From contig NZ_CALEMI010000149.1 of NCBI RefSeq assembly GCF_937910895.1, positions 1 through 58,716 on the forward strand: DNA of 58,716 nt. Direction: 5' to 3'. The notes beneath the pieces were generated by a model. The model worked only from the letters and a program-made list of their open reading frames with translations. It was not told the origin of the DNA and did not search any database. This DNA comes from an uncultured Dokdonia sp. GTDB taxonomy: Bacteria > Bacteroidota > Bacteroidia > Flavobacteriales > Flavobacteriaceae. The translations under genes and the position numbers were made by a program. How positions within the stretch are numbered: the stretch's first letter is position 1; each line of letters starts with the position of its first letter. Shown in pieces: positions 391 to 57,652 of this stretch.

Positions 391-2082
391 TTATTTACCC
401 ATTTCTAATAAAGCAATATCAAATGGAGAGCTGAAGCTAACTTTCCCATCAATGACTCTTACTTTTTGTTTAGAATAGGTTTCAATGAGGTAGTCCGCTT
501 TCGCGAAAGCGTCATCAACAAAAAACTCTTTTTTTCCAAAGGGTAGATTCAAACCAACCACCACATGATCTGTGTACTTGCCTTTAGTCAAATGACGACT
601 AAAAATATAGTAGGGGTTGTTACTTATGACCGTATGTTTTCCTGCTCCTACCGCAGGGTGATTAGCTCTAAACTGACCTAGTTTTCTCCAATGTTCGAGT
701 ACTTTTTTTGTCTCCGTAGAATTTTTCTGATCATCCCAATTCATAAAACTACGTAGGGTAGCATCACCTTGGGTTCCTTCTATAACAAGGTTTCTGGCAC
801 TTTCATCACCATAATACACTTGTGATATTCCAGGGGTCAATAATAATTTTGTACCCGTCTCTTTTGCTTTCTTTCTTGTTATATCAAAGGGTTGTCCATC
901 ATCGTGAGAAGTGGCATAATTGGTGACGCTTACGTCTTTATGAGACGTATTGTTTATGCTGTCATATTTTGCAAACAGTGTTTCATAATCCCCTTGTGCA
1001 TCATATTTAAACTGAAAATTAATCAGGTTGTCAAATCCATTTGCAAAGTAATCTACCTTGGTGCCATCTCCAAAATCAAAGGCACGTCCACCATCGACAG
1101 AATAGTTATATACTTCTCCTAGCATAAAGAATTTATTATCGTCTAACACCTTATCAGGATGTGCCGTTTTATAAGCAGCAAATGCTTTTTCGGCTTGTTC
1201 ACGTAAGACTACCCAAGATGCCTCGTCTACGTGTTTTGCAGTATCTACACGATACGCATCTATGCCTAGTTCACGCACATAATCTGTGAGCCATTTGATA
1301 ATATAATTACGCGGTGTTTTCTTATATTCATTTTCAGTAAAAAAGGTGTTGAGTTCTTTTATTTCTTGCTCGTAGCGCCCTTCTGCTTTCCATTTTTCAA
1401 CAAGGTATTTTGGGAGTTCGACTTCTTTAGTACTTTCGGTAAGAATATCGGGTAAGTTTTCTACAAGACTACAGGCTGTTGTATTCTCATACGTAGAGAA
1501 TTTACAGTTAGGATCTTCTCTTGCCCAGTCTTCTCCCCAGAACGGATCTTGATTAGTCACGGGACCTGTATGATTTAATACCACATCCATCACAATACGG
1601 ATTCCATTGTTATGTGCAATATCTACCAATGCTTTTAATTCTTCCATGGTTCCAAAGTTAGGATCTAGCTGTGTCCAGTCTTTTGCCCAATATCCGTGAT
1701 ATCCGTAGGTGGCTCCTGTACCTTCATCTACCGCTCCGTGTATTTGCTCTACAACAGGTGTAAACCATAGTGCATTGATACCAAGTTCTTTAAAATATCC
1801 TTCTTCGATTTTGTCTTTGATCCCTTTGAGATCACCCCCTTCAAATCCTCGTAACACAGCTGTTTTCTTAGATCTGTCAAAATTAATATCGTTAGAAGGA
1901 TCACCATTATGAAAACGATCTGTCAACAGAAAATACATATTGGACGCTTCCCATAAAAAAGGGGTTGGTATTTCTACTTCTTCTACAGCAATATCGGGTA
2001 CGCTTTTTTCTGATGTATCTTCTTTACAGGCTGATACTAAAAACAATAAAATAAATAAGGAATAGAGCGTGTAATTCTTCAT
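391..2082 (-). CDS. GH13 alpha-amylase family lipoprotein
   Basis: This 563-residue secreted glycoside hydrolase probably hydrolyses alpha-1,4-glucans at the cell surface or in the periplasm. A lipoprotein signal (lipobox LVSAC, Cys19) starts the protein. The GH13 barrel motifs are in order: DVVLNH (166-171), YRVD with the nucleophile Asp280, the acid/base Glu323 in MLGEV, and SHDD (His393-Asp394). The C-terminal 100 or so residues look like the usual beta domain. The palindrome described elsewhere encodes AFAKA at 525-529 in that domain. It is transcribed divergently from menA. With the glg genes it suggests alpha-glucan metabolism, although it is not in that operon. The family is certain; the exact specificity is not. 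Confidence 0.92.
   Translation of the reverse strand: MKNYTLYSLFILLFLVSACKEDTSEKSVPDIAVEEVEIPTPFLWEASNMYFLLTDRFHNGDPSNDINFDRSKKTAVLRGFEGGDLKGIKDKIEEGYFKELGINALWFTPVVEQIHGAVDEGTGATYGYHGYWAKDWTQLDPNFGTMEELKALVDIAHNNGIRIVMDVVLNHTGPVTNQDPFWGEDWAREDPNCKFSTYENTTACSLVENLPDILTESTKEVELPKYLVEKWKAEGRYEQEIKELNTFFTENEYKKTPRNYIIKWLTDYVRELGIDAYRVDTAKHVDEASWVVLREQAEKAFAAYKTAHPDKVLDDNKFFMLGEVYNYSVDGGRAFDFGDGTKVDYFANGFDNLINFQFKYDAQGDYETLFAKYDSINNTSHKDVSVTNYATSHDDGQPFDITRKKAKETGTKLLLTPGISQVYYGDESARNLVIEGTQGDATLRSFMNWDDQKNSTETKKVLEHWRKLGQFRANHPAVGAGKHTVISNNPYYIFSRHLTKGKYTDHVVVGLNLPFGKKEFFVDDAFAKADYLIETYSKQKVRVIDGKVSFSSPFDIALLEMGK
496..511. repeat. Palindrome copy 1 (CGCTTTCGCGAAAGCG), coding
   Basis: Perfect 16-bp palindrome inside the GH13 gene, read as AFAKA (residues 525-529). 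Confidence 0.95.
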
Positions 2083-2132
2083 AATGATTTATTTGAAAAG
2101 CTAAGCTACTAAATTGCATTTAAAAAGCAATC

Positions 2133-2150
2133 CTTTTCGCGCAAAGCGAA
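2133..2150. repeat. Degenerate palindrome copy, intergenic
   Basis: TTTTCGCGCAAAGCGAAAG in the spacer between the divergent GH13 gene and menA resembles the right part of the palindrome with one extra C. It may be a decayed copy. Confidence 0.4.
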
Positions 2151-2160
2151 AGAAAATAAG

Positions 2161-2168: not shown

Positions 2169-2187
2169 GTATTATAAAAATTGATTT

Positions 2188-3105: not shown

Positions 3106-4155
3106 TTGAAAGCTACCTATCATAAACATATTCTCAATTTTAAAAGAGCCAGCGGTACGTCTAGAGGGGTTTTAAAAACAAAAGAGACTTGGTATATCGT
3201 CGTAGAAGATGGTGCTAAAAAAGGAATCGGAGAATGCGGTATTTTAAGAGGATTAAGTTTTGACGATCGCCCAGATTATGAAGAACGCTTGCGATGGACG
3301 TGTGCAAATATCGCCAAAGGTTCAGACGTTCTTTGGGAAGCACTTAAAGACTTTCCGAGCATTCAATTTGGTGTGGAGATGGCGTTTCTTTCTTTGAAAT
3401 CTTCAGATCCTTTTGTGTTGTTTCCATCCAAATTCACAGATCATACAGATGCTATTGCAATCAACGGCTTGGTGTGGATGGGCGATGAAGTATTTATGAA
3501 AGAGCAGATAGAAGAAAAACTAGCTGCAGGTTTTGATTGTATCAAGATGAAAATAGGGGCTATTGATTTTGAAAAAGAGCTAGCGTTGCTTCGGTTTATA
3601 CGGACGCATTACGATGCTTCAAAAATCACATTACGAGTAGATGCGAATGGTGGGTTTGCTTTCGCGAAAGCAAAAAAAGTTTTAAAACAATTGGCGACCT
3701 TAGATATCCATTCTATAGAACAACCTATCGCAGTGAGGAATTGGGAACAGATGAAAGAACTTTGCGCTGAAACCCCAACGCCTATTGCACTAGACGAAGA
3801 ATTAATTGGCATCACAGATGTAACAAAAAAACGAGATTTACTACAAACCGTACGGCCACAATACATCATATTGAAACCAAGTTTTATAGGTGGATTCCGA
3901 GGAAGTAAAGAATGGATAGATCAAGTAGAAGCACTAGGCATACAATGGTGGATCACCTCTGCTTTAGAAAGCAATGTAGGATTGAACGCCATTGCACAAT
4001 GGACGTACAAATTACAAGCCGAAGGACCACAAGGACTGGGTACCGGAAGCCTTTTTACAAACAATATACAATCGCCTCTAGAAGTAAGAGCAGGGGCTTT
4101 ACATTACAATAATCAACTAGATTGGAATTTTAATACAGATACATTATGTTTATAG
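3106..4155 (+). CDS. menC: o-succinylbenzoate synthase MenC (TTG start)
   Basis: MenC dehydrates SHCHC to o-succinylbenzoate. The 349-residue protein has all enolase-superfamily residues: KMK (Lys147, Lys149), the metal ligands Asp179 in RVDANGG, Glu205 in HSIEQP and Asp230 in IALDEE, and Lys257 in IILKPS. The menA stop codon (3094-3096) is in the same frame just upstream and no ATG follows before conserved sequence, so TTG at 3106 is the only workable start. The palindrome encodes AFAKA at 185-189, right after the DANGGF loop. The 3' end overlaps the next gene by 10 bp, indicating translational coupling. The family also contains dipeptide epimerases, but the men context decides for MenC. Confidence 0.93.
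   Translation: MKATYHKHILNFKRASGTSRGVLKTKETWYIVVEDGAKKGIGECGILRGLSFDDRPDYEERLRWTCANIAKGSDVLWEALKDFPSIQFGVEMAFLSLKSSDPFVLFPSKFTDHTDAIAINGLVWMGDEVFMKEQIEEKLAAGFDCIKMKIGAIDFEKELALLRFIRTHYDASKITLRVDANGGFAFAKAKKVLKQLATLDIHSIEQPIAVRNWEQMKELCAETPTPIALDEELIGITDVTKKRDLLQTVRPQYIILKPSFIGGFRGSKEWIDQVEALGIQWWITSALESNVGLNAIAQWTYKLQAEGPQGLGTGSLFTNNIQSPLEVRAGALHYNNQLDWNFNTDTLCL
3658..3671. repeat. Palindrome copy 2 (GCTTTCGCGAAAGC), coding
   Basis: Perfect 14-bp core inside menC, read as AFAKA (residues 185-189). Confidence 0.95.
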
Positions 4156-5158: not shown

Positions 5159-6250
5159 ATGGTAGAAAGTAAAGAGCGATATACACGTGTACATCCCAAA
5201 TTCAAATTGAATGGGACGTCTTATTCTATGGCTTCTTTGCGAGCATTGGCGTACGATTTTATAAAAGAAGGCGAGCCTTATGAAGAGTCCGTAGGAACAT
5301 TTTTATTGGACTGGCTGAATGATAAATCCTATGTTACGGTAAAAACCTCAGGGTCTACAGGTGCTCCCAAAGCGATAAAGATTAAAAAAATACACATGTT
5401 TAATAGTGCGAAGGCAACTGCTAAGCATTTTAAACTTCCAGAAAAAACAACCGCATTACTATGCTTGCCTGCCGATTTTATTGCAGGTAAAATGATGTTG
5501 GTACGGGCAATGGTTTTAGGATGGCATATAGACATGGCGCAACCTACCTCCAATCCTTTGGATACCGTATATCGTCGCTATGATTTTTGTGCGATGACGC
5601 CTTTTCAGTTAGACAACTCCTTATCTAGATTACATCTTCTTTCAAAGCTCATTGTCGGTGGCGGTGCTATTTCTGAGGTATTACTAAAAAGACTACAGGG
5701 AATTTCTACCAAAGTATATGAAACGTACGGAATGACAGAAACCGTAACACATATTGCTGCTAGGCGTGTCAATCCTAAAAAGAAAAAGGAAGGACGTATT
5801 CCTTTTAAAACCCTATCAAAAGTAAGCGTTCACACAGATGATCGTGGCTGTCTTGTCATCAAAGCACCCTTGGTAAGTACAGATCCTGTGATCACAAATG
5901 ATTTGGTGCAGCTAGAGACGTATAAGAAGTTTATTTGGTTAGGTCGGGTGGATAATGTGATTAATAGTGGCGGTATAAAACTATATCCCGAACAGATAGA
6001 GCACAAGTTATCTCCTATGATTGATGTACCTTTTTTTGTCGCCGGAATCCCAGATGATGCGTTAGGAGAGAAGTTAGTTTTATTTGTAGAGCAGGAGGAA
6101 GAGTTCGCTTTCGCGAAAGCGGAATACGACTCCACCCATTTTGAAAAATATGAAATTCCTAAAACTATTTTCTCTATCCCAAGGTTTGAACGCACCGTAA
6201 ACGGAAAGCTGCAAAGAGGGCAAACCGTCTATAAAATGCTCAAAGCATAA
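5159..6250 (+). CDS. menE: o-succinylbenzoate-CoA ligase MenE
   Basis: MenE activates o-succinylbenzoate with ATP and CoA. The protein is short (363 residues) for an acyl-CoA ligase because the N-terminal part is reduced, as is common in Bacteroidota MenE. ANL motifs are clear: phosphate loop TSGSTGAPK (63-71), YETYGMTET, WLGRVDNVINSGG, and the C-terminal catalytic Lys in TVNGKLQRG. The palindrome encodes AFAKA at 317-321 in the variable part of the C-terminal lid domain. It closes the men cluster. The ATG at 5159 is preceded by a 53-bp gap after the CPBP gene. Confidence 0.93.
   Translation: MVESKERYTRVHPKFKLNGTSYSMASLRALAYDFIKEGEPYEESVGTFLLDWLNDKSYVTVKTSGSTGAPKAIKIKKIHMFNSAKATAKHFKLPEKTTALLCLPADFIAGKMMLVRAMVLGWHIDMAQPTSNPLDTVYRRYDFCAMTPFQLDNSLSRLHLLSKLIVGGGAISEVLLKRLQGISTKVYETYGMTETVTHIAARRVNPKKKKEGRIPFKTLSKVSVHTDDRGCLVIKAPLVSTDPVITNDLVQLETYKKFIWLGRVDNVINSGGIKLYPEQIEHKLSPMIDVPFFVAGIPDDALGEKLVLFVEQEEEFAFAKAEYDSTHFEKYEIPKTIFSIPRFERTVNGKLQRGQTVYKMLKA
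6106..6121. repeat. Palindrome copy 3 (CGCTTTCGCGAAAGCG), coding
   Basis: Perfect 16-bp palindrome inside menE, read as AFAKA (residues 317-321). Confidence 0.95.
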
Positions 6251-11265: not shown

Positions 11266-11285
11266 TACGCTTTCGCGAAAGCGTA
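11266..11285. repeat. Palindrome copy 4, extended intergenic form
   Basis: TACGCTTTCGCGAAAGCGTA is a perfect 20-bp palindrome between two convergent genes, the M24 peptidase and xerD. It is preceded by Ts on the plus strand (an A-tract on the minus strand). Confidence 0.95.
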
Positions 11286-13220: not shown

Positions 13221-13242
13221 TTACGCTTTCGCGAAAGCGTAA
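13221..13242. repeat. Palindrome copy 5, longest intergenic form
   Basis: A perfect 22-bp palindrome: TTACGC, the core, then GCGTAA. It lies downstream of the barrel gene terminator and upstream of aroQ, with a T-run before it on the plus strand. Confidence 0.95.
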
Positions 13243-18307: not shown

Positions 18308-18318
18308 AACATTATTAT

Positions 18319-18331
18319 TTTCGCGAAAGCG
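18319..18331. repeat. Partial palindrome copy between msrB genes
   Basis: TTTCGCGAAAGCG keeps the centre and right arm, but the left GC of the palindrome is lost (ATTATTTTCGCG). Confidence 0.75.
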
Positions 18332-19121: not shown

Positions 19122-20543
19122 ATGAAGATTATACATGTGAGTGCCGAGTGCTATCCCATAGCAAAAGTGGGTGGTCTAGCCGATGTCGTGGGTGCATTAC
19201 CTAAGTATCAAAACAGGATAGGAAACTATGCTACTGTGATCATGCCTTATTACGATACTGCTTATGTTGAAAAAGCAATGACAACAATCGATTTTTGTTA
19301 CAACCTTGTGGTGGATCAAAAGACGTATTTTGCTGAGATACTTTCTGTAGACGATCCTTCTTTGGGGTATCCGCTATTTTTAGTTCGTATTGCCGACTTA
19401 ACAGACCGTAAAGAGGTATATGGCTATGAAGATGATCCGCTGCGTTTTGTTGCATTTCAGCGAGTAGCGCTTCAATGGATCTTACAAAAAAATGACCTTC
19501 CAAATGTTGTACACTGTCACGATCATCACACAGGATTGATCCCTTTTATGATGAGTCATTGTGAAGATTTTTCAGCACTTAAAGATATTCCCACCGTACT
19601 CTCGATACATAATGCTCAATATCAAGGACAATTTTCTCATGAAATGGGAGGAATTTTACCACGCTTTCGCGAAAGCGATCTAGGTCTCCTCGATTGGGGA
19701 GGAATGATCAACCCGCTAGCTGCTGCTATAAAATGTGCCTGGCGTGTAAATACCGTTTCTCCATCCTATATGGAAGAATTAATGCAAAAAGCAAATGGAC
19801 TCGAGTGGTTGCTCAATCATGAAAGTGCAAAATGCGTGGGAATTCTCAATGGAATAGATGCCGAAACTTGGAACCCTGCAACCGATACCTATTTACATAA
19901 AAATTATAATATCCGTACTCGACAATCAGGTCGTAAAGCTAATAAGACAGCATTGTGTGATGAGTTTGGACTGGATGCAAGTAAACCTCTTTTTGGGTTT
20001 ATAGGTCGTTTGGTATGGGAAAAAGGATCAGATATTCTGCCAGCGATCATAGATCAAGCCTTACAAGAATATGATGTTAATGTAATCGTATTAGGTTCTG
20101 GCGCAACAGAAGTCGAATCTCAATTGGCAAATCTTGCTATAAAATATAAAGGCAGTTACAATGCCTATATCGGATATCAAGAACGGATGTCTCATCAAGT
20201 ATATGCAGGCGTAGATTTTTTATTGATGCCTAGCCGTGTAGAACCTTGTGGATTAAACCAAATGTATGCCTTACGCTATGGGTGTATGCCCATTGTAAGA
20301 AGCACTGGTGGCTTAAAAGATACGGTTATTGATCTAGGGGAAGAAGGTGGTTTTGGGATCTGTCATAACGATACATCGGTAGGAGATGTAGTGTATAGTA
20401 TAGGGAGAGCCGTCACTCATTTCAAGGATCAAAAGAAATTTAAAGAAATACAAAAAACAATGATGCAAATAGAGCACAGCTGGGAAAAATCTGCTCAAAT
20501 GTATGTATCTTTATATAATAAGTTAAAAAAAGAAGTAAAATGA
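19122..20543 (+). CDS. glgA: Glycogen synthase GlgA
   Basis: GlgA extends alpha-1,4-glucan from ADP-glucose. The 473-residue GT5 enzyme shows the ADP-glucose loop KVGGLADV (from Lys15), HDHHTGLIPF, and the C-terminal EPCGLNQMYALRYG with STGGLKDTV. The palindrome is read here in another frame as RFRES (181-185). It begins the operon glgA-glgC-glgB and its stop overlaps the glgC start by 4 bp. The 256-bp upstream region contains no other gene and presumably carries the operon promoter. Confidence 0.95.
   Translation: MKIIHVSAECYPIAKVGGLADVVGALPKYQNRIGNYATVIMPYYDTAYVEKAMTTIDFCYNLVVDQKTYFAEILSVDDPSLGYPLFLVRIADLTDRKEVYGYEDDPLRFVAFQRVALQWILQKNDLPNVVHCHDHHTGLIPFMMSHCEDFSALKDIPTVLSIHNAQYQGQFSHEMGGILPRFRESDLGLLDWGGMINPLAAAIKCAWRVNTVSPSYMEELMQKANGLEWLLNHESAKCVGILNGIDAETWNPATDTYLHKNYNIRTRQSGRKANKTALCDEFGLDASKPLFGFIGRLVWEKGSDILPAIIDQALQEYDVNVIVLGSGATEVESQLANLAIKYKGSYNAYIGYQERMSHQVYAGVDFLLMPSRVEPCGLNQMYALRYGCMPIVRSTGGLKDTVIDLGEEGGFGICHNDTSVGDVVYSIGRAVTHFKDQKKFKEIQKTMMQIEHSWEKSAQMYVSLYNKLKKEVK
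19662..19677. repeat. Palindrome copy 6 (CGCTTTCGCGAAAGCG), coding
   Basis: Perfect 16-bp palindrome in glgA, read as RFRES (181-185). Confidence 0.95.
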
Positions 20544-23744: not shown

Positions 23745-23764
23745 TACGCTTTCGCGAAAGCGTA
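23745..23764. repeat. Palindrome copy 7, extended intergenic form
   Basis: TACGCTTTCGCGAAAGCGTA, 24 bp after the glgB stop, followed by an A-tract (GCGTAAAAATCC). Confidence 0.95.
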
Positions 23765-28562: not shown

Positions 28563-28626
28563 TACGCTTTCGTACTTCGTCAAGCTCAGTATAAACTTCA
28601 GCATCGCTAGGCTCTTTGAAAGCGTA
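28563..28626. repeat. Palindrome copy split by a 44-bp insert
   Basis: Left half TACGCTTTCG (28563-28572) and right half TGAAAGCGTA (28617-28626) are separated by a sequence that starts TACTTCGTCAAGCTCAGTAT. The break is exactly at the centre of the palindrome. An A-tract follows. Confidence 0.7.
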
Positions 28627-31560: not shown

Positions 31561-32109
31561 CTATAATGTAGAAGGACGTAATTCATTTAATTTTTTAATA
31601 GCGTCTATATGTTCTAATACTTGCTGTAACAAATCTATTCTGTTCTGAAAATTACTAATCATCGCATAAATCACTCTCTTGTCTTGACCGCTTTGAGCTA
31701 GATCATTCTTTAATTGATCATAATCTGCTTCTAGCGTTTTGAGCCTTTTGGTAGCGTCATCGACAATGGCTTGTGTCTCTGGGGTTGCTTGTTTGTTGAT
31801 TTCAAAGAGTTCTCTTTCTATCGTCTGCGTAAAAAATTGCTGTGTTTGTTCCATCTCTGGAGACACGTCGGCAAGTTCACTTCCATCAGGTAGTGTATTT
31901 CGCGTAAGCGTAATCATAAAAACTAAGGCGATACTTGCTGCCACGGCAAGTGGTTTCCACCAATTCATTTTGCGTACAGGAACTTCTTTGACCTGAGATG
32001 CACTTTGTAGTTTTTTTAAGAACCGTGCTTTGTGATCTGCGCTAGGTTCTGCTACTTTGAGCTGACCATCTAGGCGCTCAAATAGTTGTTCTATATTGTC
32101 CTTCTTCAT
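31561..32109 (-). CDS. Anti-sigma-factor-like membrane protein
   Basis: A 182-residue protein with a short N-terminal cytosolic part (MKKDNIEQLFERLDGQLKV), one membrane segment (WWKPLAVAASIALVFMITL, about 55-75) and a helical periplasmic part with heptad-like leucines. The start at 32109 is chosen over 32172 because it leaves a 32-bp overlap with the sigma gene and gives a natural N-terminus. It has no zinc-type HxxxCxxC motif. Its place directly after the ECF sigma gene makes it the probable regulator of that sigma factor; this is inference from context. Confidence 0.75.
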   Translation of the reverse strand: MKKDNIEQLFERLDGQLKVAEPSADHKARFLKKLQSASQVKEVPVRKMNWWKPLAVAASIALVFMITLTRNTLPDGSELADVSPEMEQTQQFFTQTIERELFEINKQATPETQAIVDDATKRLKTLEADYDQLKNDLAQSGQDKRVIYAMISNFQNRIDLLQQVLEHIDAIKKLNELRPSTL

Positions 32110-35697: not shown

Positions 35698-36163
35698 TTT
35701 ATATTTTGATTTATAAGGTTTAAGTGTAATTGTTTAAATATAAGTATAATAACATAATTTTTTGAAATGTACTTATTAATGATTTCAACAATCTATTATA
35801 CCCTTTCGCGAAAGCGTAAAAAAATACATAGAAGAAGGTAAAAGATACTTTTTAAAAATAATAAGAGGTATTGAACCTTAGGGCAACCCCTGAACCCTAT
35901 ACCTTAAACCCAAGGCTCAGGATATTAAACCGAAGATCCCGCTGGAAAAAGCGGAATTAGTTCAACTAACTATTTTGAATTCATCCTTCGGACTTTTTAA
36001 AATAGATTTTCACTAATAATCTGGCATAACAATTGACTTCTGTATGGCGAAGACAGTGTATATATATAGGGTTGTACCTATAGAAATCTAATACGCTGAT
36101 AATTAATTAAAAAAATAAAGCCCCTAGTCCATTAGAAATGTGACATAGTGGCGTATATATAGT
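35698..36163. other. Divergent spacer NACHT/lon with structured segment
   Basis: A 466-bp spacer. It holds a palindrome copy (35799-35818). A segment at 35930-35998 has an outer stem CCGAAG/CTTCGG, an inner stem CCGCT/AGCGG and a T-run. The lon promoter is presumably in 36000-36160. No protein gene is seen; the outer stem with T-run could be a terminator, an attenuator or a small RNA. Confidence 0.5.
35799..35818. repeat. Palindrome copy, extended form with one mismatch
   Basis: TACCCTTTCGCGAAAGCGTA differs from the 20-bp consensus by one base (G to C at 35802); an A-tract follows. Confidence 0.85.
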
Positions 36164-40937: not shown

Positions 40938-42356
40938 TTACAATACAGGGCGTACTCCTATACTCTTAAACAATTTCGCTTTTGCTTTTAAAAAGGCATT
41001 TTGAAGTTTGTTTTGTTTTAGATAGGCATCAATCAGTCCTTTCTCTCGTGAGTTGACTAAGAATATAGAACTTTCTCCTAACTCAAACTTACGTTCTTCG
41101 CCAGTGAGCAATACCTGATAATTTGTTACAATATCGACTATAAGCGTATTCTGCCTTGTGTACGAATCTAACTCCTTATAAATCGCTTTTACATTATTTT
41201 CGATAGTGAGTTCTGTTGTAATCAGATCCAGTTCTGTATTACGTACTTTCAGTTTTGAAAGTTTTAACTCTCCACGTTCTTTCCTTAAGAATAACGGAAA
41301 ACTAAAATTGATCCCCCCCTTATATTGATTGGCCAAAAAACTATTTCCTATATCTGGAGTTTCTGTAAGGAAATTGTATTCCAACTTCAATTTTGGGAGT
41401 AGCTTGTTTGCCTTTAGGCTTCTGTCTACTTGGAGTCCTTCTAGTTTAAGAGCAAGCGATTGTAGTTTAGGATGGTTGGCTACCGTAAACGTCTCCAGCG
41501 ATTGTCCTGCAATTTGTAAGGAGATATCGACCTCACTTCTAATATCCAGATTAGGGATCACATTGTCTTCCAACTCTAAGGGGATATCATTATTGAGCCA
41601 TAAAAAATTGGAGAGTTCCATTCTTGCATTAAACAATGTGACCTTTGCTTGTTCAAGGCTTAATTGTCTATCTTGAAGTGATATAAATGCTTCGGTAGCG
41701 TCTATTTGAGCACTTTCTCCAACTTCAACATTTTTTTGAATTCCTTGATACCGGAGTAGTGCATTGCTTACAAATTGCTCTATGGTAATGACATCTTGAT
41801 AGGCTTGCAACCAGTTAAAATACGCAAGTGCAGCATCATAAATTACTTGATTAATGAGTAAGTCGCGATCTGCTTCTGTTTGTTGTCTAAAGAATTTTGC
41901 TTTTCGTAAGGTTGCCATGCGCTCATTGATCCATAACCCTTGTCCGATGTTTACAGACACACCTGCCGAAAAAAGCCCGTCGTCTGGCAAGAAGTTCTCC
42001 GGATTTAAGAACACTCCTTCATTACGTTCAAAACCTGCTTTTAGCTCAACGCCATACCAAGTTGGGATTTTAAGTTTTGCATCAAAAAGGTCATAATACT
42101 CACTGTCCTTAAAATCTTTACGGTCGTAGTCTGCAACTAGTTTTGGGTCAAATCCTCCGCGGGCTCTTAAGACTTCAGCCTGCCCTTCACTTAAGACAAG
42201 TTGCGCTTGTTTGACCACAGGATGAAATTGCTTTACATAGCCAAGATATTCTTCAAAGCCTAGTATTTTTTCGGCTTCGGGGAGTGTGGTTGTTTGCGCT
42301 TTCGCGAAAGCGGACCCTAAAAGAAATAAAGCTATATGCAAAAATGGTTTTATCAT
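40938..42356 (-). CDS. TolC family outer membrane efflux protein
   Basis: A 472-residue TolC-type channel: signal peptide, two long alpha-helical hairpins (for example LRKAKFFRQQTEADRDLLIN) and beta segments. It forms the outer-membrane exit of the exporter made with the ABC protein and HlyD upstream. The palindrome encodes SAFAKAQ at the end of the signal peptide (residues 16-20), so the AKA signal-peptidase site is palindrome DNA. Its start overlaps the HlyD stop by 4 bp, so translation is coupled. Confidence 0.88.
   Translation of the reverse strand: MIKPFLHIALFLLGSAFAKAQTTTLPEAEKILGFEEYLGYVKQFHPVVKQAQLVLSEGQAEVLRARGGFDPKLVADYDRKDFKDSEYYDLFDAKLKIPTWYGVELKAGFERNEGVFLNPENFLPDDGLFSAGVSVNIGQGLWINERMATLRKAKFFRQQTEADRDLLINQVIYDAALAYFNWLQAYQDVITIEQFVSNALLRYQGIQKNVEVGESAQIDATEAFISLQDRQLSLEQAKVTLFNARMELSNFLWLNNDIPLELEDNVIPNLDIRSEVDISLQIAGQSLETFTVANHPKLQSLALKLEGLQVDRSLKANKLLPKLKLEYNFLTETPDIGNSFLANQYKGGINFSFPLFLRKERGELKLSKLKVRNTELDLITTELTIENNVKAIYKELDSYTRQNTLIVDIVTNYQVLLTGEERKFELGESSIFLVNSREKGLIDAYLKQNKLQNAFLKAKAKLFKSIGVRPVL
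42297..42312. repeat. Palindrome copy 8 (CGCTTTCGCGAAAGCG), coding
   Basis: Perfect 16-bp palindrome in the tolC-like gene, read as AFAKA (16-20) at the signal peptide cleavage site. Confidence 0.95.
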
Positions 42357-45358: not shown

Positions 45359-46036
45359 TTATCTTAAATTTAATGTGTTATAAACTAAGTGTGTAAAATA
45401 ATCTGTGGGTGATACGGTATCATTACAATCTGTAATGGATGTAAAATGTTCTTTCAAAAAGTGTTGGTGTAGTGTTCCTTCTAACACGGTACTTGCAAGA
45501 CTGGTTGCATACGGATAGGAGGGACTCACTTCTTGTATGATTTCGCGTAAGCGTATAATTAATCGTTTATAAATGACAAAATATCCTTCTTTATTCTCTG
45601 CATCGACTTCTTTGGTAAGGTACGATTTTGAATACTCGCTAATGATGATTTTACTAAGTAGGACTTCATTGATATGTGAAAAATTAGAATCTTCCTGAAT
45701 TACTTGTGTCACTACATCTAATGCTTTTTGTAACTTTTGTTCTGGATCATTTAGAGCAGCTGTTGCAAATACCAATCTGTACTCCATCCATCCCCAATAC
45801 CAATTGGTCAAATATAATAGTAGCATGTGTTTATTTTCAAAATAACGATAGATAGAACTTTCGTTAGAGCCTATGTCACTGCCTAGCTTTTTAAAGGTAA
45901 ATTCTTCAAAGCCTAATTGATCAATGAGAATGATACTGTTCTCGACAATGCGTTTTCCTAAGCTGGATGATTCAGGATCTTTCAGAGACAGTTTTTCAGG
46001 AACACTGATCTTTAGATTTAAAAGAAGTCGTTGCAT
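45359..46036 (-). CDS. TetR/AcrR family transcriptional regulator
   Basis: A 225-residue protein with an N-terminal helix-turn-helix (IVENSIILIDQLGFEEFTFKKLGSDIGSNESSIYRYFENKHMLLLYL) and a TetR-type ligand domain. It is the first gene of the exporter operon, 1 bp before the ABC gene, and probably represses it. The inducing ligand is unknown. The start at 46036 places its promoter in the 126-bp spacer toward the CutA-like gene. Confidence 0.88.
   Translation of the reverse strand: MQRLLLNLKISVPEKLSLKDPESSSLGKRIVENSIILIDQLGFEEFTFKKLGSDIGSNESSIYRYFENKHMLLLYLTNWYWGWMEYRLVFATAALNDPEQKLQKALDVVTQVIQEDSNFSHINEVLLSKIIISEYSKSYLTKEVDAENKEGYFVIYKRLIIRLREIIQEVSPSYPYATSLASTVLEGTLHQHFLKEHFTSITDCNDTVSPTDYFTHLVYNTLNLR
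45541..45556. repeat. Degenerate palindrome copy in the TetR gene
   Basis: TTTCGCGTAAGCGTA keeps the right half with one A-to-T change; the same variant occurs at 31898-31914 in the anti-sigma-like gene. Confidence 0.4.
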
Positions 46037-47902: not shown

Positions 47903-47918
47903 CGCTTTCGCGAAAGCG
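47903..47918. repeat. Palindrome copy 9 (CGCTTTCGCGAAAGCG), intergenic
   Basis: Perfect 16-bp palindrome upstream of the dehydratase gene; the right side continues GCGTA but the left does not. Confidence 0.95.
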
Positions 47919-48255: not shown

Positions 48256-49020
48256 TCAGAATCCTTCAAAAGCGCCTAATCCAAACAAGGCAAAGTCATA
48301 CTTTACAGGGTCGTGAGGATCTAATTTTCGTAATGATGTATCAAGTTCGGCGAGAGATTTGGCGTCATTTTGCTTTCGCGAAAGCAATTTTAACTTTCTT
48401 CCTACATTACCCGTATGCACATCCAGCGGACAGGAAAGAAGCGAGGGTGAGATATTTTTCCAAATTCCAAAATCAACGCCTGATTTGGCATCACGTACCA
48501 TCCAACGTAAGAACATATTGATGCGCTTCGCTGCCGAATTCCGTAACGGATCACTCACGTGTTTCTGTGTACGTTGCAGATGAGGGATTTCAAAAAATAC
48601 TTCTTTAAAATGGGAAATAGCTGGTTGTAATCCTTCTTTGGTGATTCCAGACGCAAACACCGCTTCGAGTCCGTTGTGGTTTTGATAGATGTTTTGAAGC
48701 GAACGGATAAAGGTTTCTACATCCAGTTCATTGAATGTTCGATGCACAAAACCCGTGAAATATTCTGCTTGATCAGCATGATAATTTAAGATAAACTCAT
48801 GGGGTTCATTGCCCATCAGATCCATCAGTTTGGTCGCATTGGTAATAATGCTTTTGCGATTTCCCCAAGCAATGGTTGCTGTCAAAAAAGCAGCAATCTC
48901 GATATCTTCTTTCTTCTCAAACCGATGCGGAATCTGAATAGGATCATGCGGAATAAAATCTGGACGTTCATATTGTAGTGCTTTCTCGTCCAGAAAACTC
49001 TTGAGTTCTTTTTTATTCAT
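48256..49020 (-). CDS. TIGR02757 (DUF2400) family protein
   Basis: A 254-residue cytosolic protein of the conserved TIGR02757 family, common in Bacteroidota and of unknown function. The start at 49020 (MNKKELKSFLDEKALQYERPDFI) fits the family; an upstream frame start at 49047 would lie deep inside the preceding gene. Recognisable segments are AAFLTATIAWGNRKSIITNATKL, DPLRNSAAKRINMFLRWMVR and CPLDVHTGNVGRKL, with a helical fold related to DNA glycosylases (my memory, unverified). The palindrome is read here in a third frame as LLSRKQN. Start overlaps the upstream gene by 8 bp. Confidence 0.82.
   Translation of the reverse strand: MNKKELKSFLDEKALQYERPDFIPHDPIQIPHRFEKKEDIEIAAFLTATIAWGNRKSIITNATKLMDLMGNEPHEFILNYHADQAEYFTGFVHRTFNELDVETFIRSLQNIYQNHNGLEAVFASGITKEGLQPAISHFKEVFFEIPHLQRTQKHVSDPLRNSAAKRINMFLRWMVRDAKSGVDFGIWKNISPSLLSCPLDVHTGNVGRKLKLLSRKQNDAKSLAELDTSLRKLDPHDPVKYDFALFGLGAFEGF
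48370..48387. repeat. Palindrome copy 10, coding, with different flanks
   Basis: TTGCTTTCGCGAAAGCAA: 14-bp core with symmetrical TT/AA flanks, inside the TIGR02757 gene, read as LLSRKQ. Confidence 0.95.
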
Positions 49021-50713
49021 TGTCGAAGGTATAGGAGTAAAAACCATCTTTTAGATTGTTCGTACGCATTTGTGGCACCGATCTAAAATAGGCTTTAAAA
49101 TCATTGAGATGCTGTAATTGAATACAAGGAAGCTCACAATCTCCTGTCGCCCAAAAGAAATCAATATTTGTAGGTGTATAAAGTTTTAGATTTCCTTCCT
49201 GATGGACAGTGTAGGTGGCTTGGGTGTATTTTGTGTTGGGATGTGGTTTGACAAGGTATTTTAAAGAAAATACACTAAGACTTAATTGAAATTTATTTTC
49301 CGTAAGTGTATTAAGATTAAATGGAATAAATAAAGGGACGGCAATGGCTATCGTAGCTAGGGTAAGACCTATTTTGATAAGAGATTTTTTAGTAATACTT
49401 ACAGCGATTAGGGTAAGTGCTAGTAGCATAAAGAACCCTAAAAAAAAGCGATATTGAGGCGAGGTTAGCCATAAAAACAAGAGTTGTACAATGCTTATGA
49501 AATAAAGAATATAGAGTGGTTTTTTAAAACGAACTTTTCTAATAAAAAACGGAAAAAGAATCAGGACAACACACATCGCGATATTAAATAAGCCGTGAAG
49601 TTTTGGGAGTCGAAGCCAGTGTATGATACGCTGCAATAGCGTACTATTTTCATATTCTTTTGGGGTTAAGAAAAAGGCATAGTGTTTTGTCGTTTCTACA
49701 AGATATTCTTGTAGTTGCAAAGGCAACATCCAGTCTACACTGGTCAATCTAAAACTAGCGATAGGATAGAGTGGATAGCCAGAAATAATACTGTTTTTTA
49801 CTGCAAAAAGCACAAAAGCAATTCCTGAAATTATTGATAATTTCAGTAGATCTTGCTTGACAGATTTTCTACTTTTTATGTATAAAATGACAGGGAATAT
49901 AATGAGAAAAACAGCTGTTACTTTTATAAAAACAGCAAATACACCTAAAACAAATATGATGCTAAGGGGCGTCTCTTTGCTTGATAGATAGTGCGTTAAA
50001 AACTCTCCAAAGATTATCAAGGAAAGTAGATAGATGGGTAAATCTGGCGATGGTGTACTGATAAATTGGAATAAGAATACATTAAAAATAGGAAATAACC
50101 CAATGAGTAATAGATGCTTTTCTTTTTGTTTAAAATAGTGTCCTAACTTGTCTAGTGCATACACATTACCGAGAACGAGGTAAAACCCATTGATGTCATT
50201 AAAAAAGGGTGCTATTTCATTTAGGTTAAGCGCACTTTGTAAGATATGCCATCCAGAATGCTGAGCTAAAAAAAAGTGAAAATTAGCGAGCCCTTTTACA
50301 AATCCGTAGGTGTCAAGCCATTTGATGGTTTGTATGTAATAGGATTCATTATCTAATATATAGGGGGCACTTGCGCATTGTGCTGCGGCAAATAGCGTGA
50401 TGATAATTAATAGGATGTTGAGATAGGGTGGGAGTGTTTTTATTTTCGCTTTAAGCGAAAGGAGAAACCCTTTATATACCTTTCTTTTCCATAGTCCTAA
50501 ACCTAGAGTAATGCCTATAAGAATGCTTTCAAAATAGATTTGTAATCCGCTGAAAATAGCCCAAATACTTGCTAGTAAAGCAATGGCAAATCCTCCCAAG
50601 AAAAAGGTAATAACTGGATGGGATTTTCCGAGTTTGAAACTGTCTTGAAATGCAACCCCTATAGTACTTGTTATTATAAATAGATAGCACCAGTATATTA
50701 AAACAGCGAGCAT
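49013..50713 (-). CDS. Polytopic membrane protein, GT-C glycosyltransferase-like
   Basis: A 566-residue protein with about 12 or more membrane helices and a short C-terminal soluble tail. Helices alternate with the segments LDNESYYIQTIKWLDTYG and GLANFHFFLAQHSGWHIL. Such an acidic first loop and topology recall the LIC_10190 / PMT-like GT-C family, which use lipid-linked sugars; substrate and activity are not known. Neighbours are the TIGR02757 gene (8-bp overlap) and lolD (1-bp gap), so the three genes form one unit. Confidence 0.65.
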   Translation of the reverse strand: MLAVLIYWCYLFIITSTIGVAFQDSFKLGKSHPVITFFLGGFAIALLASIWAIFSGLQIYFESILIGITLGLGLWKRKVYKGFLLSLKAKIKTLPPYLNILLIIITLFAAAQCASAPYILDNESYYIQTIKWLDTYGFVKGLANFHFFLAQHSGWHILQSALNLNEIAPFFNDINGFYLVLGNVYALDKLGHYFKQKEKHLLLIGLFPIFNVFLFQFISTPSPDLPIYLLSLIIFGEFLTHYLSSKETPLSIIFVLGVFAVFIKVTAVFLIIFPVILYIKSRKSVKQDLLKLSIISGIAFVLFAVKNSIISGYPLYPIASFRLTSVDWMLPLQLQEYLVETTKHYAFFLTPKEYENSTLLQRIIHWLRLPKLHGLFNIAMCVVLILFPFFIRKVRFKKPLYILYFISIVQLLFLWLTSPQYRFFLGFFMLLALTLIAVSITKKSLIKIGLTLATIAIAVPLFIPFNLNTLTENKFQLSLSVFSLKYLVKPHPNTKYTQATYTVHQEGNLKLYTPTNIDFFWATGDCELPCIQLQHLNDFKAYFRSVPQMRTNNLKDGFYSYTFDNE

Positions 50714-51439: not shown

Positions 51440-53878
51440 TTATGACGTCTTTTTAAAGACCGTTTTTATGTTGTTGTAATCTATAAAGTAAGTAACCCGA
51501 AGTGATACGGTATGTTGTAAGGGTTGATCAAATAACGAATTAAGACTCTGTGTATAATTCAATTGAGATTGATCATCGCTATTAAAAATCTGATTTCTGT
51601 AAAGAAGGGTAGCTTCACTTCCAGGCGCAAATCGCCATCTAAAACTCAAATCCATATTCCAAATATTAAAATTGGCATTCGGATCTCTAAGCACTGTTAT
51701 ATCATAGTCGTCTATTTCTGTTCTGGATCCATCTTCATTTAGTATAAAAAAGATATTACTACTATGGTCTGCGACGCTCCAGAAATTACGTAGGCGTAGA
51801 TCAATCGCTTTAAAAGGATCGAAGTTATAACTTGCACTAATGGTGTTTTCAAAAGAAGTAACATCTCTAAGTCCTAGGAATACGTCGGTATCTGTATTGT
51901 CTACCCAGCCAAAGTTTTTCTTGCGGGTGCTGTAATTAGAAGAAAGGATTAAGAGAAACTTATCTGAAAAGCGGTATCTCGGAGAGAAGTTAAGGCTGTA
52001 GTTTACCTGGTCTTGATTACCAAACCACTGGCGTACACTACCTCGTAGATCAAAAGCAAACTTTTTTCTGAAGTCTGTAGATATAAAACCACGTACACTT
52101 GCATTCGGTTCAAAAACGACAAATCGTCCTTCTACTCTTGGTTCAAAATAGTCATTGTCACGAGAGTTATAATCTGCATCTACTCCAAAAGCAAATCGCT
52201 CTATCGTGGCAAAAAAAGTATTTATATCTATACTATTCCTAGTTTGTACACTAGGTCTATAGAGTCTTCTATGCCTTGCCGATAAACTGATACGGTATCT
52301 ATTAAATTTACCTCTGGGTTGTATCAACTCATACGATCCAGAAGCTGAAAAGTTATTAAAGTTGTTTCTAAAATTTAACCCTAAGTCATTAATATCTAAT
52401 TTGGTATTTGCAAGATCATGCCCAAAACGATAGCGCCACGCTCCTCTAATTTTAAAGAAGTCAAACTCTGATTGAAATCCTGTTTTAATTCCGTCAGGCG
52501 TACTTACATTGCTTATCACCGCTCTTCCTGAACCTCTATAGTTATTGCCTTTGTCTGCGATATCAAACACACCTGCAGTAACATTAGCATCTCTAAAATT
52601 ACTCCCGCTTCGTATCACACTTGTATTGATGAGTGATACTGAAGAGTTTTGATTAAATTGCTGATCAACTACTACTACATTATAGTTTGTCAAAGGCTCT
52701 ATACGTTCTTCCCTAGATTCACCAGTAATCGTATCACGTATGATCGCAAAGGTATTTTCTCCTACAGAATTTAAGACACCAACGCCTAGTCCATTTTTAG
52801 TACGTCCAGATAATTTTACAGAATTTAGCAATTTTACGTTATCGGGCTGTTCAATGATTTCTTCATTTTCTGCAAGATTGTCTACGCTTCCAGAAGGGCT
52901 GCCCCCTATACGTCTTGAAAAGAAAATTTCTCCCTTTTGGAAAAGATCAATTCCTTCGGTAAAGAAGGATCTATTTTCACCAAAGGTTTGTTCAAAGGGT
53001 CCCAAGTTTAAACGTACATTATCAAAAGCGACTTGTCCAAAATCAGGTATTAATTGGGCATCTAGCGTAAAACTATCGCTGAGTCCGTATTTAATATCCA
53101 ATCCCCCTGCAAAGTTGGTTTGGTTTTCTCCATCAAATGTGATGGTTTGCGCTTGCGCGAAAGGAAAAAAAGTAAGACGCACTGGAGGGTCAATATTTTG
53201 AACGCCATTTACAATCCCATTATATTGCGTATCTCTTCCTATCCCACGCTGAATCCGACTCCACGTGTGAGTTTCATTTTTACGTAAAAGTCTACGATAA
53301 AAATTTACACTCCAGTTTTGAATATCAACTACTGGAAAGCGTAAGGCATTATAAGGAATGCGATACTCTGCATACCATCCTTTTTCATCACGCGATACCC
53401 TACACTGAAAAACAACATTAAAACCAAAGTCACGATCGTTTTGCGTCACCCTTTGATCTCCGATAGTACCTGCACTGGTCACATAAAATCGCGTTTCATT
53501 GATACCATCATCATAGGTATTGAGCGCCACCATAAAGTGATCTGCTTGCACAAAAATTTCATCCCGTTGCGAAAACTGACTTGCAATAGAGTCTGGAGAA
53601 GGGTCATACATGTAGGCGGCAACATAGACTGCCCTATCATCATACGCCATTTTAACCTCTGTGCGAAAAGCATCTTCGATGGTACCTTCATTTCCAGGTT
53701 CAAACATCTGAAAGTCTCCATACGCAGGAAGTTTACTCCATATAGCATCATCTAATATTCCATCTATTTTCGGAGGGGTGTCAATTCTAGTCGCCGTAAG
53801 TTCTTTTTTTTGTGCTAGCACAGATTGCTGTAATAAAGCAACAAAAACAACTAAAAAAACGGAAACACCCTTATGCAT
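51440..53878 (-). CDS. DUF5916 outer-membrane protein with CBM9-like domain
   Basis: An 812-residue exported protein. Signal peptide (SVLAQ) is followed by a carbohydrate-binding CBM9-like domain (about 25-220: TRIDTPPKIDGILDDAIWSKLP, then VAAYMYDPSPDS) and a long C-terminal DUF5916 domain of many strands, most likely an outer-membrane barrel of the large Bacteroidota family. Function is unknown, possibly sugar-related binding or a surface role. It is monocistronic. A degenerate palindrome lies near residue 240. Confidence 0.82.
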   Translation of the reverse strand: MHKGVSVFLVVFVALLQQSVLAQKKELTATRIDTPPKIDGILDDAIWSKLPAYGDFQMFEPGNEGTIEDAFRTEVKMAYDDRAVYVAAYMYDPSPDSIASQFSQRDEIFVQADHFMVALNTYDDGINETRFYVTSAGTIGDQRVTQNDRDFGFNVVFQCRVSRDEKGWYAEYRIPYNALRFPVVDIQNWSVNFYRRLLRKNETHTWSRIQRGIGRDTQYNGIVNGVQNIDPPVRLTFFPFAQAQTITFDGENQTNFAGGLDIKYGLSDSFTLDAQLIPDFGQVAFDNVRLNLGPFEQTFGENRSFFTEGIDLFQKGEIFFSRRIGGSPSGSVDNLAENEEIIEQPDNVKLLNSVKLSGRTKNGLGVGVLNSVGENTFAIIRDTITGESREERIEPLTNYNVVVVDQQFNQNSSVSLINTSVIRSGSNFRDANVTAGVFDIADKGNNYRGSGRAVISNVSTPDGIKTGFQSEFDFFKIRGAWRYRFGHDLANTKLDINDLGLNFRNNFNNFSASGSYELIQPRGKFNRYRISLSARHRRLYRPSVQTRNSIDINTFFATIERFAFGVDADYNSRDNDYFEPRVEGRFVVFEPNASVRGFISTDFRKKFAFDLRGSVRQWFGNQDQVNYSLNFSPRYRFSDKFLLILSSNYSTRKKNFGWVDNTDTDVFLGLRDVTSFENTISASYNFDPFKAIDLRLRNFWSVADHSSNIFFILNEDGSRTEIDDYDITVLRDPNANFNIWNMDLSFRWRFAPGSEATLLYRNQIFNSDDQSQLNYTQSLNSLFDQPLQHTVSLRVTYFIDYNNIKTVFKKTS
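53149..53164. repeat. Degenerate palindrome copy in the DUF5916 gene
   Basis: GCGCTTGCGCGAAAGG differs from the palindrome at several positions, read as FAQAQ-like peptide. Confidence 0.3.
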
Positions 53879-55449: not shown

Positions 55450-55516
55450 ATTTTATAATTTTAAAATGATTGCTACAAATTTATTAAATTGACCCTTCCG
55501 AATCTACAAATAAAGT

Positions 55517-57652
55517 ATGAAAAAAATAGTTCCCTTGTTCCTACTTACCCTTATTTTTGTAATTAGTTGTAATCAAAAAAAAACAAGAAATTTGGCAAAA
55601 GACATCATTCCTCCAAAAGCAGAAAAAAAACCAGTAAATCTAGAAAAGCATGGTGACATACGCGTAGATAATTATTTTTGGATGAATGAGCGAGATCATC
55701 CTGAAGTTATCGATTATCTAGAGCGAGAGAATGATTACTATGATAAACTGACAGAACATACCAAAGATTTTCAAGTAACGTTGTTTGAAGAAATGAAAGG
55801 TCGCATCAAAGAAGATGATGCATCGGTACCTTATAAAAGAAATGGCTACTGGTATTACGGTCGTTATGAAATTGGAAAAGGATATCCTGTTTATTGTAGA
55901 AAAAAGGATTCATTAGATAACGAAGAGATTATTCTTTTTGATAATAATGTGATGGCAGAAGGCCATGCATATTTTGATCAAGCTGGATATACCATTTCTG
56001 AAGACAATAAAATGGCTGCTTTTGGTACTGATCTTGTAAGTAGACGTAAGTATACCATCCAATTTAAAAATCTTGAAACTGGAGAACTTCTTGAAGAAAA
56101 AATAGAAAATACAACGGGAAGAGCTATCTGGGCAAACGATAATAAAACCCTCTATTATACTAGAAAAGACGAAGAGACCTTACGCTCAAATCAAATCTTT
56201 AAACACATATTAGGAACTTCCCCTGAAGAAGATCAACTAGTTTTTCAAGAAGACGACGAGACTTTTAATACGTATGTCTATAAGACAAAATCTAGGAAGT
56301 TTATCATGATAGGATCAAGTAGTACCCTTACTTCTGAATATCAGTTTACGACAGCAGAAGATGGCGTAAGTGATTTTAAAATGCTACAAAAACGAGAGCG
56401 AGGTTTGGAATACAGTGTGGCACATTATGATGAAGATTTTTATATTCTTACCAATATGGATGATGCAACCAACTTTAAGTTGATGAAAACTCCAGAAACT
56501 GCTACCGAAAAAGAAAATTGGACCGAAGTAATACCGCATAGAAAAGATGTACTTCTAGAAGATGTAGATATATTTAAAGATTTTTTAGTGGTAAGCGAGC
56601 GTACCAATGGGCTTAATAAAATACATATTAAGCGTTGGGATGGCACAGAAGACTACTACTTGCCTTTTGATAATGAAACCTATACAGCAAACACAGGAAC
56701 CAATGTAGATTTTGATACAGAAATTCTTAGATATGGGTATAATGCATTAAACACCCCTACATCTGTGATTGATTTTAATATGGTCACAAAAGAACGCGAA
56801 GTAAAAAAAGAACAAGAAGTGCTAGGCGGTACCTTCAAAAAAGAAAACTATATCATGGAACGGATATGGGCAACTGCCAGAGATGGTGTAAAAGTTCCTG
56901 TATCTATCGTCTACCATAAAGACACTAAGAAAAACGGGAATGCTCCGCTTTTACAATACGCCTACGGGAGCTACGGTAATACGATTGACCCTTCATTTTC
57001 TAGCATCCGATTAACATTACTTGATCGCGGATTTATCTACGCAATTGCACACGTACGAGGCGGAGAATACTTAGGACGTGAGTGGTACGAAGACGGAAAA
57101 CTGCTTAAAAAGAAAAATACTTTTACAGACTTTATAGATGTTTCAAAACATTTAATAGATCAAGACTATACATCTTCAGAACATTTATATGCCTCAGGAG
57201 GATCTGCTGGTGGTCTCTTAATGGGTGCGATTATGAATATAGCGCCAGAACTGTATCACGGTGTGATTGCTTCCGTACCATTTGTAGATGTTGTGACCAC
57301 AATGCTCGACGACACTATCCCATTAACCACAGGAGAGTATGATGAGTGGGGAAATCCTAACACAAAAGAGTATTATGATTATATGAAAAGTTATAGTCCT
57401 TATGATAACGCTTTCGCGAAAGCGTACCCAAACGTTTTTGTAACCACAGGATATCACGATAGCCAAGTGCAATACTGGGAACCTGCAAAGTGGATCGCCA
57501 AATTAAGAGAGTATAATACAGGAGATAATCAAGTCTTGTTTTTTTGTGATATGGACGCTGGTCATGGAGGTGCTTCGGGTAGATTTGAAGCCTTAAAAGA
57601 GGTGGCAAAAGATTATGCATTCTTATTAGATCTAGAAAACATAGATAAATAA
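55517..57652 (+). CDS. S9 prolyl oligopeptidase (oligopeptidase B type), lipoprotein
   Basis: A 711-residue serine peptidase with a lipoprotein signal (FVISC), a seven-bladed propeller (about 80-410) and an alpha/beta hydrolase domain with nucleophile Ser563 (GGSAGG), Asp648 (YHDSQ) and His683 (AGHGG). It cleaves short peptides after basic residues in the oligopeptidase B group; here in the envelope. The palindrome encodes AFAKA at 632-636, exactly where E. coli PtrB has five other residues, with no change of length (from memory). Confidence 0.92.
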   Translation: MKKIVPLFLLTLIFVISCNQKKTRNLAKDIIPPKAEKKPVNLEKHGDIRVDNYFWMNERDHPEVIDYLERENDYYDKLTEHTKDFQVTLFEEMKGRIKEDDASVPYKRNGYWYYGRYEIGKGYPVYCRKKDSLDNEEIILFDNNVMAEGHAYFDQAGYTISEDNKMAAFGTDLVSRRKYTIQFKNLETGELLEEKIENTTGRAIWANDNKTLYYTRKDEETLRSNQIFKHILGTSPEEDQLVFQEDDETFNTYVYKTKSRKFIMIGSSSTLTSEYQFTTAEDGVSDFKMLQKRERGLEYSVAHYDEDFYILTNMDDATNFKLMKTPETATEKENWTEVIPHRKDVLLEDVDIFKDFLVVSERTNGLNKIHIKRWDGTEDYYLPFDNETYTANTGTNVDFDTEILRYGYNALNTPTSVIDFNMVTKEREVKKEQEVLGGTFKKENYIMERIWATARDGVKVPVSIVYHKDTKKNGNAPLLQYAYGSYGNTIDPSFSSIRLTLLDRGFIYAIAHVRGGEYLGREWYEDGKLLKKKNTFTDFIDVSKHLIDQDYTSSEHLYASGGSAGGLLMGAIMNIAPELYHGVIASVPFVDVVTTMLDDTIPLTTGEYDEWGNPNTKEYYDYMKSYSPYDNAFAKAYPNVFVTTGYHDSQVQYWEPAKWIAKLREYNTGDNQVLFFCDMDAGHGGASGRFEALKEVAKDYAFLLDLENIDK
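57408..57425. repeat. Palindrome copy 11, coding
   Basis: ACGCTTTCGCGAAAGCGT, perfect over 18 bp, in the S9 peptidase gene, read as AFAKA (632-636). Confidence 0.95.

Follow-up and report, generated by a model that had tools for sequence, protein, structure and literature searches.

The DNA uptake sequences (DUS) of Neisseriaceae and the uptake signal sequences (USS) of Pasteurellaceae are clade-limited motifs that occur in hundreds to thousands of copies, in genes and in spacers, with few near-misses and with long, weakly conserved flanks. Uptake sequences are concentrated in the shared genome. Chi sites are short, asymmetric and oriented, and the sites bound by Noc, like parS, are 14–16-bp palindromes with TTTC...GAAA halves that are bound by a dimer. 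Here we analyze a 14-bp palindrome, GCTTTCGCGAAAGC, that recurs through a contig of an uncultured Dokdonia sp. of the family Flavobacteriaceae (NZ_CALEMI010000149.1, positions 1 to 58,716; this whole stretch of 58,716 nucleotides is referred to as the window). A first-pass annotation of the window had singled out the palindrome and named highly iterated palindrome 1 (HIP1) and Rickettsia palindromic elements (RPE) as parallels.

HIP1 (GCGATCGC) and the alternate HIPs are perfect palindromes that are over-represented across the genomes of a clade and lacking in related clades, and cyanobacterial HIPs accompany cognate methyltransferases, according to PMC4390886; the same paper describes HIP function as little known in 2015, twenty years after the 1995 description of HIP1. 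The Dokdonia palindrome shares the over-representation across a clade and shows the strong excess over Markov expectation that serves as a criterion for HIPs. However, its core is neither GCGATCGC nor a derivative of it, a 14-bp core within a motif of ~50 bp stands against the 8 bp of HIP1, its host belongs to Bacteroidota, and the genomes that carry it share no methyltransferase of three families. It is also found in phage contigs. With DUS and USS it has in common a clade-limited excess, here in three genera among those searched, and a scarcity of near-misses; unlike them, it is a perfect dyad. In density and in carriage by phages it is similar to Chi, and it is far more numerous than the sites bound by Noc. 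The palindrome resembles HIP1 and uptake sequences yet departs from each in defining properties, and we do not claim its membership in either group. A literature search, outside which most subscription papers lay, found no earlier report of this 14-mer or of its 12-mer core.

Abundance, anatomy and conservation of the palindrome

The genome from which the window comes (169 contigs, 4.81 Mb) holds 878 perfect copies of GCTTTCGCGAAAGC, 11 of them in the window, and no copy of a reversed control 14-mer. The Lon protein of this genome is 89–96% identical to ten named Dokdonia records and falls among them, which identifies the organism as a Dokdonia. In an 820-kb sample of a sister genome (G016), 225 copies were found where Markov models of order 1–3 predict 0.001–0.002. 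A model of order 5 predicts 3.8, an expectation that is inflated because the hexamer counts already include the motif. Among 118 relatives searched, the source genome included, all 18 Dokdonia genomes carry 369–905 copies each, and a genome of a second genus (G027, genus g11) carries 578; the other 52 genomes of the same family have at most 17 each, and the 47 of the same order have none. The annotation had named two outcomes that would count against it, a genome-wide number no higher than chance and copies restricted to the window; neither was found, with hundreds of copies in every Dokdonia genome examined.

A wider draw of 397 genomes from the family yielded six with at least 400 copies (two Dokdonia, three g11 and one of a third genus, g219); among the remaining 391 genomes, 317 lack the 14-mer and 74 have 1–19 copies. 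The four g11 and g219 genomes hold 408–664 copies. In a phylum-wide draw of 395 genomes, those outside the family have a single copy at most, and eight of them do. On a lon tree, g219 and the motif-poor genus g173, with just 9 and 6 copies, group with Dokdonia (support 91, branching order unresolved, one gene tree). No comparable palindrome was found in g173 or g105 (100 kb each) or in Winogradskyella/Psychroserpens, Aquimarina or Christiangramia (202 kb each, all from the same lon region; the comparison spans nine genomes), and the strongest 12-mer in these samples from other genera has 6 copies.

The palindrome is the centre of a dyad-symmetric unit of ~50 bp that consists of a C-poor arm, TAC, GCTTTCGCGAAAGC, GTA and a G-poor arm. 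At the 225 G016 sites, the base flanking the core is C in 86%, followed outward by A (61%) and T (78%); the outer arm contains 2–12% C at positions -4 to -18, and the opposite side is the mirror image. Over the 24 bases examined to each side, strong conservation does not extend past ~18 from the core. Sites in g11 and g219 are built alike, although their TAC shoulders are weaker. At G016 sites, agreement between the two arms does not exceed what composition predicts, showing that the halves are independent; because the arms vary independently, the site is not a hairpin, and a hairpin or cruciform was rejected since the arms pair no more than expected. At genic sites read in gene orientation, C makes up 6.8% of the upstream arm and its complement 8.7% of the downstream arm, similar on both sides (coding-strand background, C 17.6% and G 21.2%), and divergent, tandem and convergent spacers are used alike (1.02–1.19 sites per kb). 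This equality of arms and of spacer classes argues for action on duplex DNA, not on RNA. As no spacer class is preferred, a promoter or terminator was also rejected. The annotation had listed a nucleoid or regulatory dimer among possible roles; a symmetric, presumably dimeric reader does fit a dyad with independent half-sites, but a regulatory operator is unlikely given the lack of spacer preference.

Near-misses are rare: samples totalling 1.28 Mb of Dokdonia sequence contain 326 perfect, 39 one-mismatch and 68 two-mismatch sites. By arithmetic alone, a simple equilibrium model would translate the preponderance of perfect sites over one-mismatch sites into a scaled selection of ~6. The commonest one-mismatch form, GCTTTCGCAAAAGC (9/39), corresponds to replacement of the outer C of TCGCGA by T; the variant may be tolerated, or the base may be a mutational hot spot.

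Comparisons between species show that sites are kept in place by selection or drive. In cross-species Dokdonia alignments of at most 85% identity, 40 of 58 comparisons keep the exact 14-mer (they are not independent, representing 43 distinct query sites, 32 of which are retained at least once), compared to 37 of 1891 (2%) for neighbouring 14-mers in the same alignments. Without the identity limit, 46 of 64 are kept; the remaining 18 comprise 12 gapped cases, some of them due to inserts, and six with substitutions (1, 1, 2, 2, 4 and 7). Across genera, at 35–71% protein identity to g11 or g219, genic comparisons number 19, of which 6 are exact and 13 have 5–10 mismatches.

As called by a simple caller that misses short and end-cut genes, open reading frames (ORFs) make up 87% of the sequence but contain 186 of 368 Dokdonia sites, with 181 in spacers. 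All frames are used, with a preference for the frame that encodes AFAKA (105 vs. 47 and 34). In the window itself, 7 of the 11 copies are inside ORFs, contrary to the annotation's description of the palindrome as not a gene feature. Genic copies aligned to genera lacking the motif are ungapped within it for 15 of 18 queries, and those aligned to g11 or g219 for 18 of 19. Substitution is therefore the usual origin of genic sites. The parallel with HIP1, a highly iterated palindrome that originates by substitution in genes and spacers alike, is thus sound, while the parallel with RPE fails, as these alignments do not indicate in-frame insertion.

On the complete G016 chromosome, sites are evenly spread over 41 samples of 20 kb (mean 5.5, variance 3.5), with no clear gradient from origin to terminus. 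Only 16 pairs lie less than 1 kb apart where 76 are expected; neighbours within 1–1.5 kb are avoided, spacing is near random past 1.5 kb, and gaps reach 17.6 kb. A thin stretch at ~1.6–2.1 Mb is present on one arm only. The four bins of 41 with deviating GC content have a mean of 2.75 sites, compared to 5.78 for the others, although the rank correlation is not significant. It should also be noted that three ORFs of 7–12 kb (loci L145, L148 and L151) are free of the motif. Three parS-like sites (TGTTCCACGTGAAACA and variants) at L133:368-3332 lie close to the GC-skew switch, and this cluster probably marks the origin region.

Phage contigs and motif-bearing islands

A 16-mer form of the site, CGCTTTCGCGAAAGCG, matches 41 stretches in IMG/VR, whereas a control palindrome with its halves swapped matches 14, each once. 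GC content exceeds 50% in seven of the 41 stretches; these, together with locus L240, which resembles one of them, are probably chance matches. A 22-mer, GTACGCTTTCGCGAAAGCGTAC, had no match in viral contigs. Twelve loci in 11 records, all chosen for having the site and including two that are nearly the same phage (G461 and G468), contain 2–7 copies each, or 40 in 281 kb (~one per 7 kb). Several records encode terminase, portal, major head, tape-measure or baseplate proteins and are clearly tailed phages. Two groups are probably temperate, one because it has an integrase and the other because it has Mu-like transposition proteins and an S24-type repressor. Locus L251 has a sugar transporter gene and may be host DNA.

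The phage sites resemble those of the chromosomes: their arms contain 10% C against a background of 20% (33 distinct sites; the base at -1 is partly set by the 16-mer used for the search). Where phage flanks are less than 70% identical (mostly alignments at 64–67%), 22 of 38 comparisons, counted in both directions and including near-identical phages, are exact, 13 are one base off and 3 are six off. For the major head protein of one phage there are 35 related loci: sites are present in the five with 99–100% identity and absent from the 30 with at most 58%, many of which are mutually close and only 4–19 kb long. Five of six relatives of the Mu-like phage terminase carry sites; the one that does not is at 34% identity. 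Since presence and absence go with relatedness, the site follows phage lineage. We infer that it would in turn follow the host, and the phages with the motif appear to belong to the motif-bearing bacteria.

In other genera, where counts are low, the copies often occur in clusters. Loci L121–L124 (genomes G029, G142 and G278) are motif-bearing islands that are partly 69–88% alike between genera, and some sites of L122, L123 and L124 coincide by coordinates. The L123 island encodes copper and heavy-metal efflux, an ATPase and a multicopper oxidase. These islands are probable imports from a motif-bearing host, although blastn of the heavy-metal islands against the Dokdonia samples gave no match and the donor was not found. 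A plasmid search also found nothing, a result of little weight as the query was short and repetitive. Given that copper and heavy-metal islands of other genera carry it, the site may also help to identify DNA with a history in such hosts, in the manner of a barcode.

Possible functions of the site

The palindrome is very probably a site under selection for recognition by a single symmetric reader. A two-fold symmetric protein would read the site on duplex DNA, one half-site per subunit, whatever the direction of transcription. If DNA bearing the site were preferentially taken up or recombined, the site would spread and persist in the manner of an uptake sequence.

Several observations make such an exchange tag the most likely use of the site. 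First, a second site within ~1–1.5 kb is rarely kept. Second, copy number does not depend on genome size: among 12 Dokdonia genomes at least 99% complete (six less complete genomes were excluded), the eight of 2.9–3.6 Mb have a mean of 801 copies and the four of 4.3–5.5 Mb a mean of 795. Site density, which ranges from one per 3.6 kb to one per 7.5 kb, drops with genome size (rank correlation -0.80, P 0.002). Such figures disfavour any requirement that each stretch of DNA have its own site, and favour a process linked to shared DNA. Third, the site has been acquired by phages. The exclusion over ~1 kb, the size-independent copy number, the restriction to a clade and the rarity of near-misses also match uptake sequences maintained by drive, which again favours an exchange tag. 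As a whole, the best explanation, in which a selected dyad site of ~50 bp is read by a symmetric protein and serves as a self-DNA exchange tag, has a little less than an even chance of being right. The exchange-tag step on its own, to which we commit, is somewhat less likely than not. The most specific version, a new kind of dyad-symmetric self tag of ~50 bp that a symmetric protein reads for uptake or exchange in three genera of Flavobacteriaceae, spread by drive, with an exclusion of ~1 kb and acquired by the temperate phages of these bacteria, is tentative and somewhat doubtful.

A number of points weigh against an exchange tag. To our knowledge, uptake sequences are non-palindromic, oriented motifs, and we know of no uptake system in Dokdonia. 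The mean copy numbers cover a range of 570–905 in the 12 genomes. On the lon tree, g11 lies apart from Dokdonia, on weakly supported branches of what is a single gene tree. The phage groups examined are probably temperate and so may just share the fate of the host chromosome, and the even spacing equally suits a role in chromosome architecture. Finally, no reader protein was found; ParB paralogues, RecC, the REP-associated tyrosine transposase (RAYT; REP, repetitive extragenic palindromic) and three methyltransferase families all fail to explain the site.

The main rival is a site for chromosome architecture or topology, at which a nucleoid protein or topoisomerase would dock every few kb, in phages as well. 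This role would account for the even coverage of the chromosome, the absence of a clear origin-to-terminus gradient and of a preference for gene orientation, the symmetric footprint of ~50 bp with independent halves, and the density of sites in phage contigs; the parS-like cluster also suggests that ParB/parS is a separate system. However, copy number should not then be indifferent to genome size, and g173, for all its grouping with Dokdonia and g219, has next to no sites. A Noc-like paralogue of ParB was rejected as the reader, as 12 of 13 motif genomes have a single ParB match and no second protein of the family, and G016 has its parS-like cluster besides. Overall, we regard an architectural role as possible but unlikely.

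A Chi-like signal for recombination or against degradation, palindromic so as to work in both directions and carried by phages against a host nuclease, is less likely still. The density of sites in Dokdonia is near that of Chi in Escherichia coli, and some phage lineages retain the site while related ones are without it. Chi as known is not a palindrome, though, and gaps of up to 17.6 kb also weigh against such a signal. RecC was found in none of 38 genomes, which rejects RecBCD and means that the system would need AddAB or another enzyme.

The annotation had also suggested a methylation site, and a HIP-type mark, with an orphan methyltransferase recognising the core and sites serving repair or strand discrimination, would be in line with the methyltransferases that accompany cyanobacterial HIPs (PMC4390886) and with the C-to-T type of the commonest near-miss. 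Nevertheless, no shared enzyme emerged for the families C5, N6_N4 and D12, each of which is missing from several motif genomes: of 16, C5 is present in 7, N6_N4 over the cut-off in 2 and D12 in 10. Three genomes, G006, G009 and G305, have 757, 808 and 664 copies without any of the three over the cut-off (G006 has one N6_N4 match below it). Furthermore, the conserved unit far exceeds the usual length of a methyltransferase site. For these three families the suggestion is unsupported, and we consider a methylation mark improbable.

A mobile repeat of the REP/RAYT, RPE or miniature inverted-repeat transposable element type, spreading by insertion, is largely refuted and very improbable. The palindrome is, like REP sequences, bacterial interspersed mosaic elements and REPIN-RAYT systems, a short repeated palindrome with hundreds of copies; some sites contain REP-like elements, RAYT is present in all three g11 genomes, and the 12 gapped cases among 64 cross-species comparisons could be read as insertions. 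Unlike REPIN-RAYT, however, it is mostly not inserted, as the ungapped genic alignments show; half of its copies are genic, there is no strong conservation beyond the arms, and RAYT, itself rejected as the reader, occurs in only 2 of 12 Dokdonia genomes (missing in 10) and not in the one g219 genome. An RNA-level element (terminator, attenuator or processing hairpin) is also largely refuted and barely credible: a perfect 14-bp palindrome can fold and 181 of 368 copies are intergenic, but the arms do not co-vary as base pairs, their bias in gene orientation is equal on both sides, convergent spacers are not preferred, and 186 copies lie inside ORFs in all frames.

The Dokdonia palindrome represents an independent case of an iterated palindrome, with a longer and cleaner motif, in culturable marine bacteria. 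As there is a related genus poor in the motif, phage lineages with and without the site, and genomes without the three methyltransferase families, the question of its function is directly testable.

Copies in the window and inserts at the palindrome

All 11 perfect cores listed by the annotation are present where it had placed them (Table 1). Its partial copies are real as well, though some of the positions given were off by 2–3 bases and are corrected in the table; a split copy claimed near 28563 was found slightly downstream, its halves parted by a short REP-like element. With up to two mismatches, the window has 15 matches, compared to 0.04 expected (100 shuffles). For the core in the starch synthase gene, the homologous places align ungapped and differ by 1 base in G016 and by 7 in G004.

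Table 1. Copies of the palindrome in the window, by window coordinates.
Feature	Position	Strand	Context
Perfect core GCTTTCGCGAAAGC	497..510	.	within ORF 391-2082 (alpha-amylase family, minus strand), phase 0
Perfect core	3658..3671	.	within ORF 3106-4155, phase 0, translates AFAKA
Perfect core	6107..6120	.	within ORF 5159-6250, phase 0, AFAKA; homologous G012 place has one substitution
Perfect core	11269..11282	.	intergenic; TAC/GTA shoulders
Perfect core	13225..13238	.	intergenic; TAC/GTA shoulders
Near copy, 2 mismatches	18317..18330	.	
Perfect core	19663..19676	.	within ORF 19122-20543 (starch synthase catalytic domain), phase 1
Perfect core	23748..23761	.	intergenic; TAC/GTA shoulders
Split copy	28566..28623	.	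GCTTTCG and GAAAGC with REP-like insert between (TACTTCGTCAAGCTCAGTATAAACTTC...)
Weak near copy TATTTCGCGTAAGC, 3 mismatches	31896..31909	.	
Near copy CCTTTCGCGAAAGC, 1 mismatch	35802..35815	.	
Perfect core	42298..42311	.	within ORF 40938-42356, phase 0
Near copy, 2 mismatches	45539..45552	.	
Perfect core	47904..47917	.	intergenic
Perfect core	48372..48385	.	within ORF 48256-49047 (DUF2400), phase 2
Near copy, 2 mismatches	53151..53164	.	
Perfect core	57410..57423	.	within ORF 55517-57652 (S9 peptidase), phase 0

In 1.80 Mb of Dokdonia sequence, a short REP-like element with the signature CTTCG-n-C-nnn-GCTCAG has 15 matches, eight of which are at or beside the palindrome or a half of it. As the rate for random places is 4.7%, the palindrome appears to be a preferred landing place of this element in Dokdonia. 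Conversely, the elements are few and the palindromes many, making it unlikely that the palindromes derive from the element. Elsewhere the element was not found beside the palindrome (0 of 9 matches in the lon regions of other genera, 0 of 3 in g219, 0 of 1 in g11 and 0 of 1 in g173/g105). A 15-base variant of the element adds two cases, the split copy of the window and L127:10838; at locus L007, an intact palindrome aligns to the place of the split copy.

The element was also seen in or beside the palindrome at G012 loci L089, L092, L094, L099, L100, L101 and L102 and at G016 locus L140. Its insertion points often recur, either between GCTTTCGC and GAAAGC or near the junction of GCT and TTCGCGAAAGC. 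In L007, the homologue of the core at 42298 is split within a coding gene by a 42-bp insert that has inverted repeats and a whole number of codons.

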